A stretch of 64,000 nt of DNA from Ursus arctos (taxonomy: Eukaryota; Chordata; Mammalia; Carnivora; Ursidae): positions 23,704,501-23,768,500 of the forward strand of contig NW_026623050.1 in assembly GCF_023065955.2 (NCBI RefSeq). The letters run 5' to 3'. A program made the translations under genes and the position numbers. Below, one piece after another: positions 1 through 63,744 of this stretch (the first letter of the stretch is position 1; each line of letters starts with the position of its first letter). A model generated the notes under the pieces. It worked only from the letters and a program-made list of their open reading frames with translations. It was not told where the DNA came from and ran no database searches.

Positions 1-306
<306 letters not shown>

Positions 307-11184: not shown

Positions 11185-11198
11185 TATGCATACATTTT

Positions 11199-11395
11199 TT
11201 TTTTTTTTTAAGATTTTATCTATCTATTTGACAGAGAGAGACAGCCAGCGAGAGAGGGAACACAAGCAGGGGGAGTGGGAGAGGAAGAAGCAGGCTCCCA
11301 GCAGAGGAGCCTGATGTGGGGCTCGATCCCAGAACGCCATGATCACGCCCTGAGCCGAAGGCAGACGCTCAACGACTGCGCCACCCAGGCGCCCC
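11199..11395 (-). mobile_element. Can-SINE A (left member of the SINE trio)
   Basis: Young-type minus-strand SINE. Diagnostic bases: 'ttatctatctatttgacag' in the tail, 'ctcccagcagagg' at 11296-11308, 'cgccatgatc' at 11336-11345 and 'cgctcaacgactg' in the head. Imperfect TSD tatgcatacatttt / tacgtatacatttt. Confidence 0.95.
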
Positions 11396-12666
11396 TGTAC
11401 GTATACATTTTAACAGAACAAATGATGGCGCGTCACACAGACGTCAGCCTCCGTCTTTGCTGCTGTGGCTCTGCCAGCTTGACAACATCCTCGAGCACTG
11501 ACCAGTCCCTTCGGGGGCCTCCCGGTCAACGCTCCTGTTTTCAAGTACAAAGGTTGGGGAGTGGAATTGCTCTTACTAATCCAGCCGTTGATTAGAATCA
11601 ACAGACTTGAGTTCAAGGACAAACTCTACCTCGGTGACCTTGGGCAAGGTCCGTTTCACGGAATTTTATTCTCCACAGTGAAGGCAATCTATTGGCTACC
11701 ATATACCTAAATGTGACTTAGGGTTTGGGTACCTCTACCGACAGGACTTTCATTAATAGATAAACCAAGAAAATAAAATCTTATCCGACTAACGTGTCCT
11801 AATTTGGAGTTTGAAAATTACAGTCAGTGAGGCAATGGTAGCTGTTTAGTAAATTTCTTTTTTTTTTTTTAAAGATTTTATTTATTTATTCGACAGAGAG
11901 AGAGACAGCCAGCGAGAGAGGGAACACAAGCAGGGGGAGTGGGAGAGGAAGAAGCAGGCTCATAGCGGAGGAGCCTGATGTGGGGCTCGATCCCAGAACG
12001 CCATGATCACGCCCTGAGCCGAAGGCAGACGCTCAACGACTGCGCCACCCAGGCGCCCCTGTACGTATACATTTTAACAGAACAAATGATGGCGCGTCAC
12101 ACAGACGTCAGCCTCCGTCTTTGCTGCTGTGGCTCTGCCAGCTTGACAACATCCTCGAGCACTGACCAGTCCCTTCGGGGGCCTCCCGGTCAACGCTCCT
12201 GTTTTCAAGTACAAAGGTTGGGGAGTGGAATTGCTCTTACTAATCCAGCCGTTGATTAGAATCAACAGACTTGAGTTCAAGGACAAACTCTACCTCGGTG
12301 ACCTTGGGCAAGGTCCGTTTCACGGAATTTTATTCTCCACAGTGAAGGCAATCTATTGGCTACCATATACCTAAATGTGACTTAGGGTTTGGGTACCTCT
12401 ACCGACAGGACTTTCATTAATAGATAAACCAAGAAAATAAAATCTTATCCGACTAACGTGTCCTAATTTGGAGTTTGAAAATTACAGTCAGTGAGGCAAT
12501 GGTAGCTGTTTAGTAAATTTCTTTTTTTTTTTTTAAAGATTTTATTTATTTATTCGACAGAGAGAGAGACAGCCAGCGAGAGAGGGAACACAAGCAGGGG
12601 GAGTGGGAGAGGAAGAAGCAGGCTCATAGCGGAGGAGCCTGATGTGGGGCTCGATCCCAGAACGCC
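11304..12666. repeat. Perfect 664-bp tandem duplication bounded by Can-SINEs
   Basis: Bases 11304-12002 match 11968-12666 with no difference that I could find, at a constant offset of 664. Each unit has about 465 bp of unique intron (11396-11860 and 12060-12524) plus parts of the flanking SINEs. A MIR-like stretch (about 11605-11690, repeated at 12269-12354) is carried along. See findings for the crossover evidence. Confidence 0.96.
11861..12059 (-). mobile_element. Can-SINE B (chimeric middle member)
   Basis: The left part (tail, 'attcgacagagagagagac', 'ctcatagcggagg') matches SINE C. The right part ('cgccatgatc', 'cgctcaacgactg') matches SINE A. Its left flank is SINE C's TSD and its right flank is SINE A's flank, so it has no matching TSD of its own. 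Confidence 0.95.
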
Positions 12667-12723
12667 GGGATCACGCCCTGAGCCGAAGGCAGACGCTTAA
12701 CCGCTGCGCCACCCAGGCGCCCC
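12525..12723 (-). mobile_element. Can-SINE C (right member of the SINE trio)
   Basis: Young-type minus-strand SINE with diagnostic 'ctcatagcggagg', 'cgccgggatc' and 'cgcttaaccgctg'. Perfect 18-bp TSD tgtttagtaaatttcttt at 12507-12524 and 12724-12741. Confidence 0.96.
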
Positions 12724-12741
12724 TGTTTAGTAAATTTCTTT

Positions 12742-32936: not shown

Positions 32937-33177
32937 GGGGTGCCTGGATGGCTCAGTCAGTTGAATGTCTGACTCTCGGTTTAGGTTCAGGTCATGATCT
33001 CAGAGTCCTAGGATGGAGCCCTGCATCAGGCTCTCTGCTCACCACTGAGTCGGCTTGAGGATTCTCTTTCTCTCTCTCTCTCCCTCTGCCCCTCCCCCCA
33101 CTCGAGCGCTGGCACACACGCACACTCTCTCTCTTTCTCAACTAAATAAATAAAACTTTTTTAAAAATAATAAAAAT
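32937..33177 (+). mobile_element. Can-SINE, older, with CT-rich expansion
   Basis: Begins ggggtgcctggatggctcag; the body has an extended (CT)n and CACACG stretch. TSD 'aaaagcctccattttc' before it and 'aaaagcctcccatttt' after it. Confidence 0.92.
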
Positions 33178-33330: not shown

Positions 33331-34058
33331 CACTGCCCTGGAGGCAGTGACTGATTCTCATGCACGGTGGACAACAGGCATGGTGAAAGCAACCGGCCAG
33401 GGTGGCCCTGAGAGTGGGCCTAGATATCCACCATACTGAGCAAACCCACGGCGCTCTTTCTCTAGAAGACCAAAAGCTGGGCAATGCTGAATCAGGCAGA
33501 AGGATCTGTGGCTTTGGGTACCGAAGGCACAGGCATAATTTGGTGCCTAAGTATTAAGCAATACCACTTGATGGTACACGACGCCTCATTCTATTTCCTC
33601 TCTGAATTCACTTTGAACCTTCATCGGTCAATAAATTAGTGAGTTATCTACAATGTACTGAGTGAGCCCTGTACTCAGCGCAAGGACACACAGAAGAGGG
33701 TACGAGGCGTGTCAAGTCCACTAATCCAATCAGTCTGGTCTAGTTGGGGAAAGGACGAACACGCAAGGTGCATATGACACTAGGCAGCAGATTCAGTTCT
33801 GGGGCTCCACTTAAAAACTGGAAGAGTTCAGAGAACAGAAGTTACCGGAGTGGACTGGAACAGTTCAGAAAGAGTAGGTGGAGGGAATGGAAATGGAGGT
33901 GGGCCTGGCAGATGCAGAGGACTTAGCTGGCCTGCGGGAGGAGGGAGACTTTGCAGGGACAAGACAAATGATGGCAGAGAAGAGGAGGAGGAGACATCAC
34001 GGCTCCTGGGGAAACCTAGCTTTCAAAGCACCATTCTTGATTAGTCTAGTTCACAAAG
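33331..34058. other. Unique intronic sequence, no feature seen
   Basis: Purine-rich at 33750-34000; open frames there reflect that composition. Confidence 0.45.
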
Positions 34059-34240
34059 GGGGCCTCCGGATCAGCAAAAGCAGCAGCCCCTGGAAATGGG
34101 ACAGAAACGCAAAGTCTTGGCCCCGCCCCCAACCTAGTGAATGAGATGCTCTCGGCACAGGGGTGCCCGCCCCCCCAGTCTGTGTTTCTACACATTCTGC
34201 AGGTGATTCCAGTGCAGGTTAAAGTTTTTGAGAGGCACGG
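34059..34240 (+). mobile_element. MER5A-like hAT-Charlie DNA transposon relic
   Basis: 'ggcctccggatcagcaaaag', 'cttggccccgcccccaacct', 'cagtctgtgtttctacacat' and 'caggtgattccagtgcaggt' follow the MER5A order. Non-autonomous fossil. Confidence 0.78.
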
Positions 34241-44124: not shown

Positions 44125-44241
44125 CATCGTTTTTGGTTTTTTTTAAGCCCCAATGTGGGGCTCGAACTCACAGCCCTGAGGTCAAGGCCTGAGCTGAGAT
44201 CAAGAGTTGGATGCTTAACGGAGTAGGCCACCCAGGCGCCC
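44125..44241 (-). mobile_element. Short Can-SINE
   Basis: 'aagccccaatgtggggctcg', 'gagctgagatcaagagttgg' and 'ggccacccaggcgccc'. TSD ttccattat at 44116-44124 and 44242-44250. Confidence 0.92.
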
Positions 44242-60770: not shown

Positions 60771-61684
60771 GGCCTACTGGAAAATAAGAGTTGGACAGGG
60801 GCAGCCTGGAAGAGATTTGAGACAGTACCACATTTTGGCCTTTAGCCTGTTTTCTGTAAGAGCTGAGAGTTTTTGAGTAAGAGTGACAGGTGCAAAGCTG
60901 TTATTACCAGGAAAATGACTGTGGCCATGCTGTTTCTGTGAATTACAGGGGGAAGACAGTGAAGATCACTTAGGAAACTCTTGTGCTGGTCCCAGCATAA
61001 GACAATGCAGATTCAAAGCAGGGTGACAGCTGGGAAAAGGGAGGACACACGCAAGGGACTTGGAAATCAGCAGGAATCTGGAAGGGAGAAGGACAGACAA
61101 GAACCCAAATGTCTCCGGTCTAGATGTCTTGGGAAATACTAAAAGGTAAACCAATGAGGAAGAGAAGGTAAAGGACACCTCCTCTATCCTCAAGACTGGA
61201 ATGTTTTGAAGGCCAGGCTCTTTTCAATGACTTTCTCTATTTTTGTGCTGTTGATATTACCACTCTGGATCTCCTTCTCTCTCTCCAGCCTGACAAAATC
61301 TGTTCTTGGGCAGCTTAGAAGGTTTGACAGAGTAGTTTACAGTGAGGTGCTATATTAACCGACCAACACGCTACCAAGAACAGTGCAGCAGCTCAGAGGG
61401 ACCAGTGACGGTAAAGCTTGGCATGGACAGTTGCCATGGAGGAGCCATTCTGGGCAGAGGGCTTTGCAAGCATGGTGTAGACAGCCACCAATTGCACGCA
61501 TCTGACTCCAGAATGGCCTCGGACAGAACCTTCCATCCGTCCCACTCCTAAACATTGCCCTTCCATTTTTGCTTCAGCAAGATAACTGGAGAGTATGGAG
61601 TGGTTGCATCCTGTCCTTGTAAGATGATATCTTGGAGGACAACCACCAGACTTCCTCTGGGGACATGTTTCATGGTGTGTTACC
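60771..61684. other. Unique intronic sequence, no feature seen
   Basis: Nothing recognised. Confidence 0.5.
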
Positions 61685-61761
61685 TTGCTTGGACCACAGG
61701 GTTCCTAGTGCTTTCAATCACCTGCGGGCTTTTAAATTGCAGATTCAGAATCAGCAGATCT
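61685..61761. mobile_element. MER5A-like relic, left half
   Basis: 'caatcacctgcgggctttta' and 'cagattcagaatcagcagat' are one part of a MER5A copy. Its other part is found, inverted, at 62493-62582. Confidence 0.78.
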
Positions 61762-61958
61762 GGGGCGCCTGGGTGGCACAGCGGTTAAGCGTCTGCCTTC
61801 GGCTCAGGGCGTGATCCCGGCGTTCTGGGATCGAGCCCCATATCCGGCTCACCACTCAGCCGGGAGGCTGCTTCTCCCTCTCCCTCTGCCCTTCTGCCTC
61901 TCCCCGGCGCTCCCACTGTCTCCCTCTTTCTCAAGTAAATAAATAAAATCTCTTTAAA
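61762..61958 (+). mobile_element. Hybrid Can-SINE at left inversion edge
   Basis: The head (ggggcgcctgggtggcac through 'gggatcgagcccca') is young type; the tail ('ctgcttctccctctccctct') is older type. Its flanks do not match each other: agaatcagcagatct on the left, aaatgctttctttc on the right. Confidence 0.92.
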
Positions 61959-62249
61959 AAATGCTTTCTTTCCTACAAACTGGAGGATGGAAATTTCAGA
62001 GCTGGGAAATCATGTAGGAGATCTTGATGTTATGATCCCGTATTTGTCTGAATGATTTATGCTATTTTTGGACGTGTTTGTAATTATGCAAGGTTACATG
62101 ATGATAAAAGTTTTCAGTAGCTTCTCTAGTTTCTGAAGGTATTTGGTGCTTTGCATTCTCAGTAACTCCCTCTGGAGACCTTCCTTTTTGTTGTGGGAGT
62201 ACGCGTCTGTAAATTTAACAGTTTTTCACAGCATCCAAGAGAAGAGAAG

Positions 62250-62420
62250 AGAAATCTGTTATTGGAATGAATAATTACTGAGGATCCGTTCTGTATTGTC
62301 CCACTTTGTACCTGCTTTGAGGTAGGTGTTCGTTTTCTTCCTACAGACGGGGAAACAGAACACACGGGGTAGGTAACCTGCTTGGGGTCACCCATCTGAA
62401 AAGTGGCAGAGGAGGGATTT
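62250..62420 (-). repeat. MIR SINE inside the inverted segment
   Basis: 'ctacagacggggaaacagaa', 'gtaacctgcttggggtcacc' and 'gtggcagaggagggatttac' are minus-strand MIR. Confidence 0.78.
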
Positions 62421-62492
62421 ACATTGAGGGTCACCTGAAGGGAAGTTCTGTTGTGAGAGGAGCTGTCTGTTCCTGGACACGTGCGGATCACG

Positions 62493-62582
62493 GCTGGGGT
62501 CCACGGGCCAGCAGCATAGGCACCTCTTCGGATGTTCTGGGAACTGCAGAACCTCAGGCCCCACCCCAGATCTGCTGATTCT
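62493..62582. mobile_element. MER5A-like relic, right half (inverted)
   Basis: 'ccacgggccagcagcatagg' and 'aggccccaccccagatctgc' complete the MER5A copy of 61685-61761 when the intervening segment is reversed. Confidence 0.78.
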
Positions 62583-62687
62583 TTTTTTTTTTTTAAGATT
62601 TTATTTATTTATTCGACAGAGATAGAGACAGCCAGCGAGAGAGGGAACACAAGCAGGGGGAGTGGGAGAGGAAGAAGCAGGTGCCCC
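62583..62687 (-). mobile_element. Internally deleted hybrid Can-SINE at right inversion edge
   Basis: Minus-strand young-type tail and body fused at 'cctg' to only the first ~10 bases (ggggcacctg) of an older-type head, so about 100 bp of head is missing. Flanks mismatch: agatctgctgattct on the left, gaaagaaagcattt on the right. Confidence 0.92.
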
Positions 62688-62702
62688 AGAAAGAAAGCAT
62701 TT

Positions 62703-63744
62703 CAAGAGGCCAGTATACCCGATTTAACCAACCTCAGTGTATTTAAGCTTCTTCAACCCACCCTTCCGAGAGTCTTCCCCTTCCCAAAGTCCAATTCCAC
62801 CCTGCACTGAGAATTATTGTCCTAGTGCATTGCAAAGTTTTTTGATCCAAAATGTGTCATTTACGTGAAACTTAAAAAATGCATTTACTACATGAGCCAG
62901 ATAGTCTCATATTTGGAGTTCTTTGTCATAGGTGAAGAAACAAACCTTCTCTACATTTCTACATTTTGAAAAGCAAACCACAGCTCTGTAAAGGCACAGT
63001 TTGTCAGGCTAAATATCAACATTCCTTTGCATGCATTAATCTTTTAACCCCAAAAACTCAAGTATGGGAGCCAAGTGAACATAGCTGCATTAAGATCAGG
63101 CTCCAGAATAATCTACTGCTTGTTGTATAGACACAGTGCCTATGATTTCTTTCTTAAATCCGTCCCTTTCACTTTCTCTATCCCACACCCAGAAAAACTC
63201 CAATTTAGGGAAGGCCACACCTATCACTAAGAGCTAACCAACCTTTCAAAAAAAACATCAGGAGCAAACGTTAAGAGCCATTCAAAACCAAAGGAAATGC
63301 CAAGACACTCAAAAAAAAGTTCTACTCTCAATGCAAATGAAGCTACCGGAATTGGTGGGGAGCAGAATAAACAAAACAATTAAGCCATTAGCATGTCTCC
63401 TTGGAGATAAACTGGCCTTTGGAGGAGGGCAAAACCAGATCCCACTGGGGCAGGTGAGTGGTTAGTACACTAAGGTGAAAAAAAAAAAAAGGCAGTAAAT
63501 TCTCCACTTTAAACCTGAACAGATAGAAACTCGATCAGGTAATAATTTTACATTCTGATGGTCCACATAGCTGAACGAGGAAAACCTTCTTATCCTATCT
63601 TTTATATCACCCAAAACAGTCACAGTTCACACCTGATTTGGAATGGTCCCCTTTGGAGTTGGGAACTTCTCCCCAGAGAGCCTGGGTGATTTTTGTTTCC
63701 ATGTCTGCTTGGAAAGGGCAGCACTCCCCCTTAAAGGGGCAAGT
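62703..63744. other. Unique intronic sequence, no feature seen
   Basis: Nothing recognised; A runs at 63478-63491. Confidence 0.5.

Follow-up and report, generated by a model that had tools for sequence, protein, structure and literature searches.

Inversions generated by recombination between retrotransposons facing in opposite directions have been described since 2008 as retrotransposon recombination-mediated inversions (RRMI). In the sections of Lee et al. 2008 (PMC2603318) that concern us here, RRMI is reported at 49 loci of 252 human–chimpanzee inversions, the mediating elements being Alu (Alu-RMI) or L1 (L1-RMI). Sizes start at 166 bp and the Alu-mediated inversions mostly stay below 1 kb; the elements at the breakpoints are chimeric, and mismatch of target-site duplications (TSDs) counts among three tests used there to establish the ancestral state (same sections of PMC2603318). 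Deletions are reported there at 12 of the 49 loci according to the text, the bracketed numbers of Table 1 totalling 10.

The nearest carnivore case that we found is the feline LYST duplication (PMC6952417). As far as the consulted part of that report goes, it resembles the present locus in having a carnivore SINE (SINEC_Fc) at its central breakpoint, and non-allelic homologous recombination is put forward there as a possible mechanism, but the rearrangement is a tandem duplication of ~20 kb rather than an inversion. Microinversions (PMC8755829) likewise occur between inverted repeats, and template switching and MMBIR are discussed for them; they differ in measuring 17–33 nt, and the abstract is silent on SINEs and TSDs. 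According to the relevant part of Peng et al. 2018 (PMC6230240), SINEC1_AMe ranks among the Can-SINE types of panda and polar bear with the highest abundance and activity; the terms inversion, recombination and chimeric do not occur in the available text of that paper. The available text of PMC13103737, PMC12458276, PMC4524476, PMC9757699 and PMC10426128 holds no relevant passage on SINE-mediated inversion. Among the matches listed from the open-access literature, no Can-SINE-mediated inversion was recognised by title or start of abstract, which is weak evidence of absence.

The locus examined here lies in a 64-kb stretch of Ursus arctos DNA (the window) and is very probably an RRMI, in this case with Can-SINEs; it shows the RRMI features that one genome can test. 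Compared with the loci in the sections of PMC2603318 cited above, it shares opposite elements at the breakpoints, chimeras, TSDs whose mismatch disappears in the ancestral state, a size below 1 kb and a deletion, which is present in some of them. It differs from them in that the elements are Can-SINEs and not Alu or L1, the species is neither human nor chimpanzee, a single genome is considered and one junction is microhomologous. The non-reciprocal right junction is the one new, instructive detail of a locus that is otherwise ordinary in kind.

Target-site duplications shared between two opposite SINEs

Recombination between a young and an older Can-SINE facing in opposite directions has very probably flipped 624 bp of unique sequence (Table 1). 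The inversion reading is supported because flipping the segment back restores two normal TSDs, type-matched SINE parts and one MER5A relic all at once. Both elements are putative Can-SINEs and align with 19 other SINE copies of the window.

Table 1. Features of the inverted locus (positions within the window; strand as read in the window)
Feature	Position	Strand	Remarks
MER5A left part, outside inversion	61716-61761	+	presumed from assumed consensus; weak alone
TSD1 copy retained beside left SINE	61747-61761	+	AGAATCAGCAGATCT, 15 bp
Left hybrid Can-SINE	61762-61958	+	young-type 5' part followed by older-type 3' part
Left junction interval	61825-61850	+	26 bp; last strongly young letter 61824; older-type four-base insertion from 61851
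Probable inverted unique segment	61959-62582	-	624 bp; basis TSD swap and MER5A
TSD2 copy probably moved to left SINE by inversion	61959-61972	+	AAATGCTTTCTTTC, 14 bp
MER5A right part, inside inversion	62495-62582	-	presumed from assumed consensus
TSD1 copy probably moved to right SINE by inversion	62568-62582	-	AGAATCAGCAGATCT
Right hybrid Can-SINE	62583-62687	-	ten 5' bases and young-type 3' part; ~95 bp absent between CCTG repeats
Right junction, CCTG microhomology	62678-62681	-	joins SINE positions 7 and 102
TSD2 copy retained beside right SINE	62689-62702	-	AAATGCTTTCTTTC

The retrotransposons at the two breakpoints have opposite orientations (left plus, right minus), and each is bordered by halves of two different duplications. 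When each element is read in its own orientation, TSD1 precedes and TSD2 follows the left one, whereas TSD2 precedes and TSD1 follows the right one. Both pairs are 100% identical across the two SINEs, as found by a repeat search and on re-reading of the letters. The search returned perfect inverted pairs exactly at the SINE edges, 61747-61765/62564-62582 and 61959-61972/62689-62702; the first measures 19 bp and exceeds the 15-bp TSD by four, since GGGG opens both the SINE and the continuation of the MER5A relic. A single extra base, 62688, stands between TSD2 and the right SINE. The flanks described in an earlier note on this DNA, two split inverted pairs of 15 and 14 bp, were thus reproduced exactly, and its statement that neither SINE has a TSD of its own was borne out by an exact-match test.

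When 61959-62582 is flipped in silico, AGAATCAGCAGATCT flanks the young SINE and GAAAGAAAGCATTT (plus strand) flanks the older one, so that TSDs mismatched as found are matched in the ancestral state, itself an in silico reconstruction. The same operation pairs the young 5' part with the young 3' part and the older with the older. The restored insertion sites, TTC/AGAA and TTG/AAAT, resemble what we take to be the consensus target of the L1 endonuclease.

While the TSD swap is the main evidence, supporting evidence is provided by the rejoining of a relic that we take to be MER5A. Local alignment to the consensus that we assume for this element scores 97 for the un-inverted sequence versus 34 as found (the control being the left flank plus the first 150 bases beyond the left SINE), with a maximum of 34 in 200 shuffles. 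Scored alone, the flipped right half reaches 70 and the left half 34, and BLAST with the same assumed consensus places the right half at 62495-62581 (E 2e-11). The joining of the halves on flipping, as proposed in the earlier note, is therefore upheld by these scores; its start of the relic at 61685 is not, the alignment beginning at ~61716. A second MER5A-like copy occurs at 34049-34227 (-) and is strongly diverged (70% to the assumed consensus). As a reference independent of that consensus it gave a score of 30 versus a shuffle maximum of 31; it is too diverged to lend support either way.

The specificity of the swap was assessed over 21 SINE copies of the window, delimited from BLAST matches with the tail-only matches at 33126 and 5019 left out; the window probably holds further SINE fragments too weak to pass the BLAST threshold, one being a minus-strand 5' end near 44227 that came up only as a 14-mer. 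An own exact TSD of at least 11 bp is present in 8 of the 19 other copies and absent from 11, nine of these being of the older type. A missing TSD is thus not rare in itself, and the distinctive feature is the reciprocal cross-match. When 5' flanks are compared with the 3' flanks of other copies, matches of at least 14 bp occur in only 3 of 420 ordered pairs: left to right (16 bp), right to left (14 bp) and 12723 to 12059 (19 bp), the last because of a tandem duplication described below. Three weaker cross-matches of 9–11 bp look like chance. In 61400-63000 there are 10 exact 14-mer inverted pairs, part of which stem from SINE tails, versus a total of 2 over 500 mononucleotide shuffles.

These results bear on the view that no inversion took place, either because independent insertions happened to have matching flanks or because the SINE interiors underwent gene conversion, a view to which we give almost no credence. 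Two exact matches of 14–15 bp stand right at the SINE edges, and conversion within SINE interiors would not be expected to shift unique DNA, TSD copies or the MER5A relic. Chance matches and independent insertions were rejected on TSD identity, the test of 420 pairs and the shuffles.

Another close pair of young SINEs in opposite orientation, at 451 (+) and 1273 (-), has own exact TSDs of 16 and 14 bp, the 14-bp one being A+T-rich. This pair is a natural un-inverted control.

Hybrid composition of the SINEs and structure of the junctions

Both SINEs were aligned with eight young-type and eleven older-type copies, all from the window, and the two types differ at 35 listed diagnostic columns. 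Scored on leave-one-out diagnostic columns, the left SINE is young at 8 of 8 columns 5' of the split and at 0 of 23 columns 3' of it, the split column having been picked after the switch interval was seen. All eight young letters lie at columns up to 61844, and the four-base insertion that begins at 61851 is of the older type, with letters of its own. Young letters occupy at least 5 of 7 columns (5' part) and at least 19 of 22 (3' part) in the eight young copies, and at most 3 of 8 and 10 of 25, respectively, in the eleven older ones, among which copy 57415 is mildly mixed (2/8 and 10/25). By the diagnostic columns, no switch like that of the left SINE occurs among the 19 other copies.

In the 3' part of the right SINE all 14 of the 14 diagnostic columns carry young letters, and from CCTGCTTCTTCC onward this part follows the young consensus except for one tail substitution and a shorter A run. 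Its 5' part consists of the ten bases GGGGCACCTG only, the A of which recurs in three of the 11 older copies and in none of the eight young ones; from the flank and this one letter we infer that the 5' part is of older origin. The chimeric elements typical of RRMI are thus clear on the left and, on the right, are indicated by the young 3' part together with the probable older 5' origin. Of the proposal in the earlier note that both SINEs are hybrids, the left element and the young 3' part of the right one stand on letter counts, and the older 5' origin of the right one comes from flank and letter.

The two junctions differ in structure. The left one is in register, and its 26-bp interval holds no fixed difference between the SINE types. 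At the right one, the CCTG at SINE position 7 is joined to the CCTG at position 102, with ~95 bp missing relative to the young consensus, a shortening that the earlier note does not mention; the longest gap run among the 19 other copies is 18 columns, and the 100-column gap run of the right SINE in the alignment includes misaligned first bases. In-register joining, which reciprocal non-allelic homologous recombination would leave at both junctions and at the same element position, is seen on the left and not on the right. Since the right junction is a CCTG microhomology with loss, the present product is not that of a clean reciprocal crossover, although the exchange could have been reciprocal if a deletion obscured this afterwards.

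We propose that a young Can-SINE (+) had inserted into the MER5A relic, which would have made TSD1, while an older-type Can-SINE (-) with TSD2 would have sat ~620 bp to its right. Recombination would then have joined these two elements in register, at a point within 61825-61850, flipping the 624 bp in between and exchanging the 3' ends of the SINEs along with the inner copy of each TSD. CCTG would have served as the point of joining at the other end, where ~95 bp of SINE are absent by comparison with a full-length element. We presume that the flip arose through homology-driven repair or through template switching between the paired SINEs. The inversion of ~620 bp put forward in the earlier note thus receives support from the TSD swap, the left hybrid SINE and MER5A, with a segment of 624 bp; its 'recombination or template switching' names the right pair of mechanisms, narrowed here by the in-register left junction and the CCTG right junction.

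We lean towards the loss of ~95 bp belonging to the same event as the inversion, because gap runs in the 19 other copies do not exceed 18 columns. A two-step course is less probable, though by no means far-fetched: a clean reciprocal crossover would first have produced two full-length hybrid SINEs, of which the right one later lost ~95 bp by slippage between CCTG repeats. The young consensus does have CCTG both at position 7 and at position 102, and a direct-repeat deletion between them yields the exact product, but the 19 other copies offer no comparable internal loss, so that two separate events would have to have struck one element by coincidence. We also considered, and rejected, the possibility that the older SINE was already internally deleted when the inversion took place. 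An in-register exchange would in that case be expected to leave young bases 90–101 in the right SINE, where they are absent, and the left SINE keeps the older-type bases of this stretch.

FoSTeS and MMBIR are replication-based models of template switching, and a process of this type, compatible with the single event that we prefer, is a tentative option. On this view, the polymerase would have departed from the young SINE, used the opposite strand as template for the middle after pairing with the older SINE, and come back at CCTG. A longer in-register junction combined with a 4-bp junction with loss suits such models, and in the part of Potapova et al. 2022 (PMC8755829) considered here the microinversions for which they are discussed are flanked by inverted repeats. 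However, 624 bp far exceeds the length of those microinversions, and break repair with end joining gives an identical product, from which sequence alone cannot separate template switching.

A contig falsely flipped between the two SINEs is a most improbable source of the arrangement. The right SINE is only ~105 bp long and has a specific microhomology junction, so that one short read could cover it; had repeats been falsely joined, a full-length SINE would be expected there; and the two SINE types are distinguishable at the 35 listed columns.

Genomic setting and age

The coding exon at 121-285 (-) is preceded by a splice-acceptor-like CAG and matches the N-terminus of what we take to be MYO1E, the query being an assumed N-terminal sequence (residues 2–55, 85% identity, E 9e-27). 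Because this N-terminal exon lies on the minus strand, MYO1E runs on that strand and the inversion is situated ~61 kb 5' of the exon. Exon 1 of MYO1E was not found in the 64-kb window, and a location of the inversion in intron 1 is plausible. We regard the inversion as most likely a neutral scar of non-coding sequence. A 28-mer taken from the inverted stretch had 0 matches in bacterial, archaeal and viral contig collections.

The ~168 young-derived bases contain 1 to 3 differences. At an assumed 1-2e-9 per site per year, this places the insertion of the young SINE at roughly 3–18 My, an estimate too weak to use. The inversion is younger than that insertion.

A tandem duplication between SINEs and its possible implications

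The window also contains a tandem duplication at 11196-12726 with a period of 664 bp, in which 11196-12062 and 11858-12726 are 98.4% identical, with zero differences over the unique stretch between SINEs. This identity suggests either a very recent event or an assembly duplicate. The duplication is missing from the Tandem Repeats Finder output, in which the longest period was 500. It is bordered by three minus-strand SINEs, of which the middle one, 12059, shares its 5' flank and 5' letters with copy 11395 and its 3' flank and 3' letters with copy 12723; for this reason it looks like a chimera of SINE–SINE recombination. Its switch falls in 11968-12002 (SINE positions 58–92) and overlaps that of the inversion at 61825-61850 (positions 64–89), at a resolution limited by where the SINE types differ. 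Both intervals lie near what is presumably the B box of the inner promoter of the Can-SINE.

The overlap of the switch intervals, and the presence of both an inversion and a duplication in one 64-kb window, form the basis for a speculative and rather improbable reading, in which Can-SINEs might hold a recombination-prone stretch near their presumed inner promoter and genomes rich in young Can-SINEs could hide many sub-kilobase flips. If it were true, undetected SINE–SINE flips would be revealed by TSD swapping alone, without an outgroup.

The inversion described here can be genotyped by PCR. With one genome alone, swapped TSDs together with hybrid SINEs can expose an inversion as well as the state that preceded it, and the approach based on TSD swapping would permit a genome-wide count of SINE-mediated flips in carnivores.
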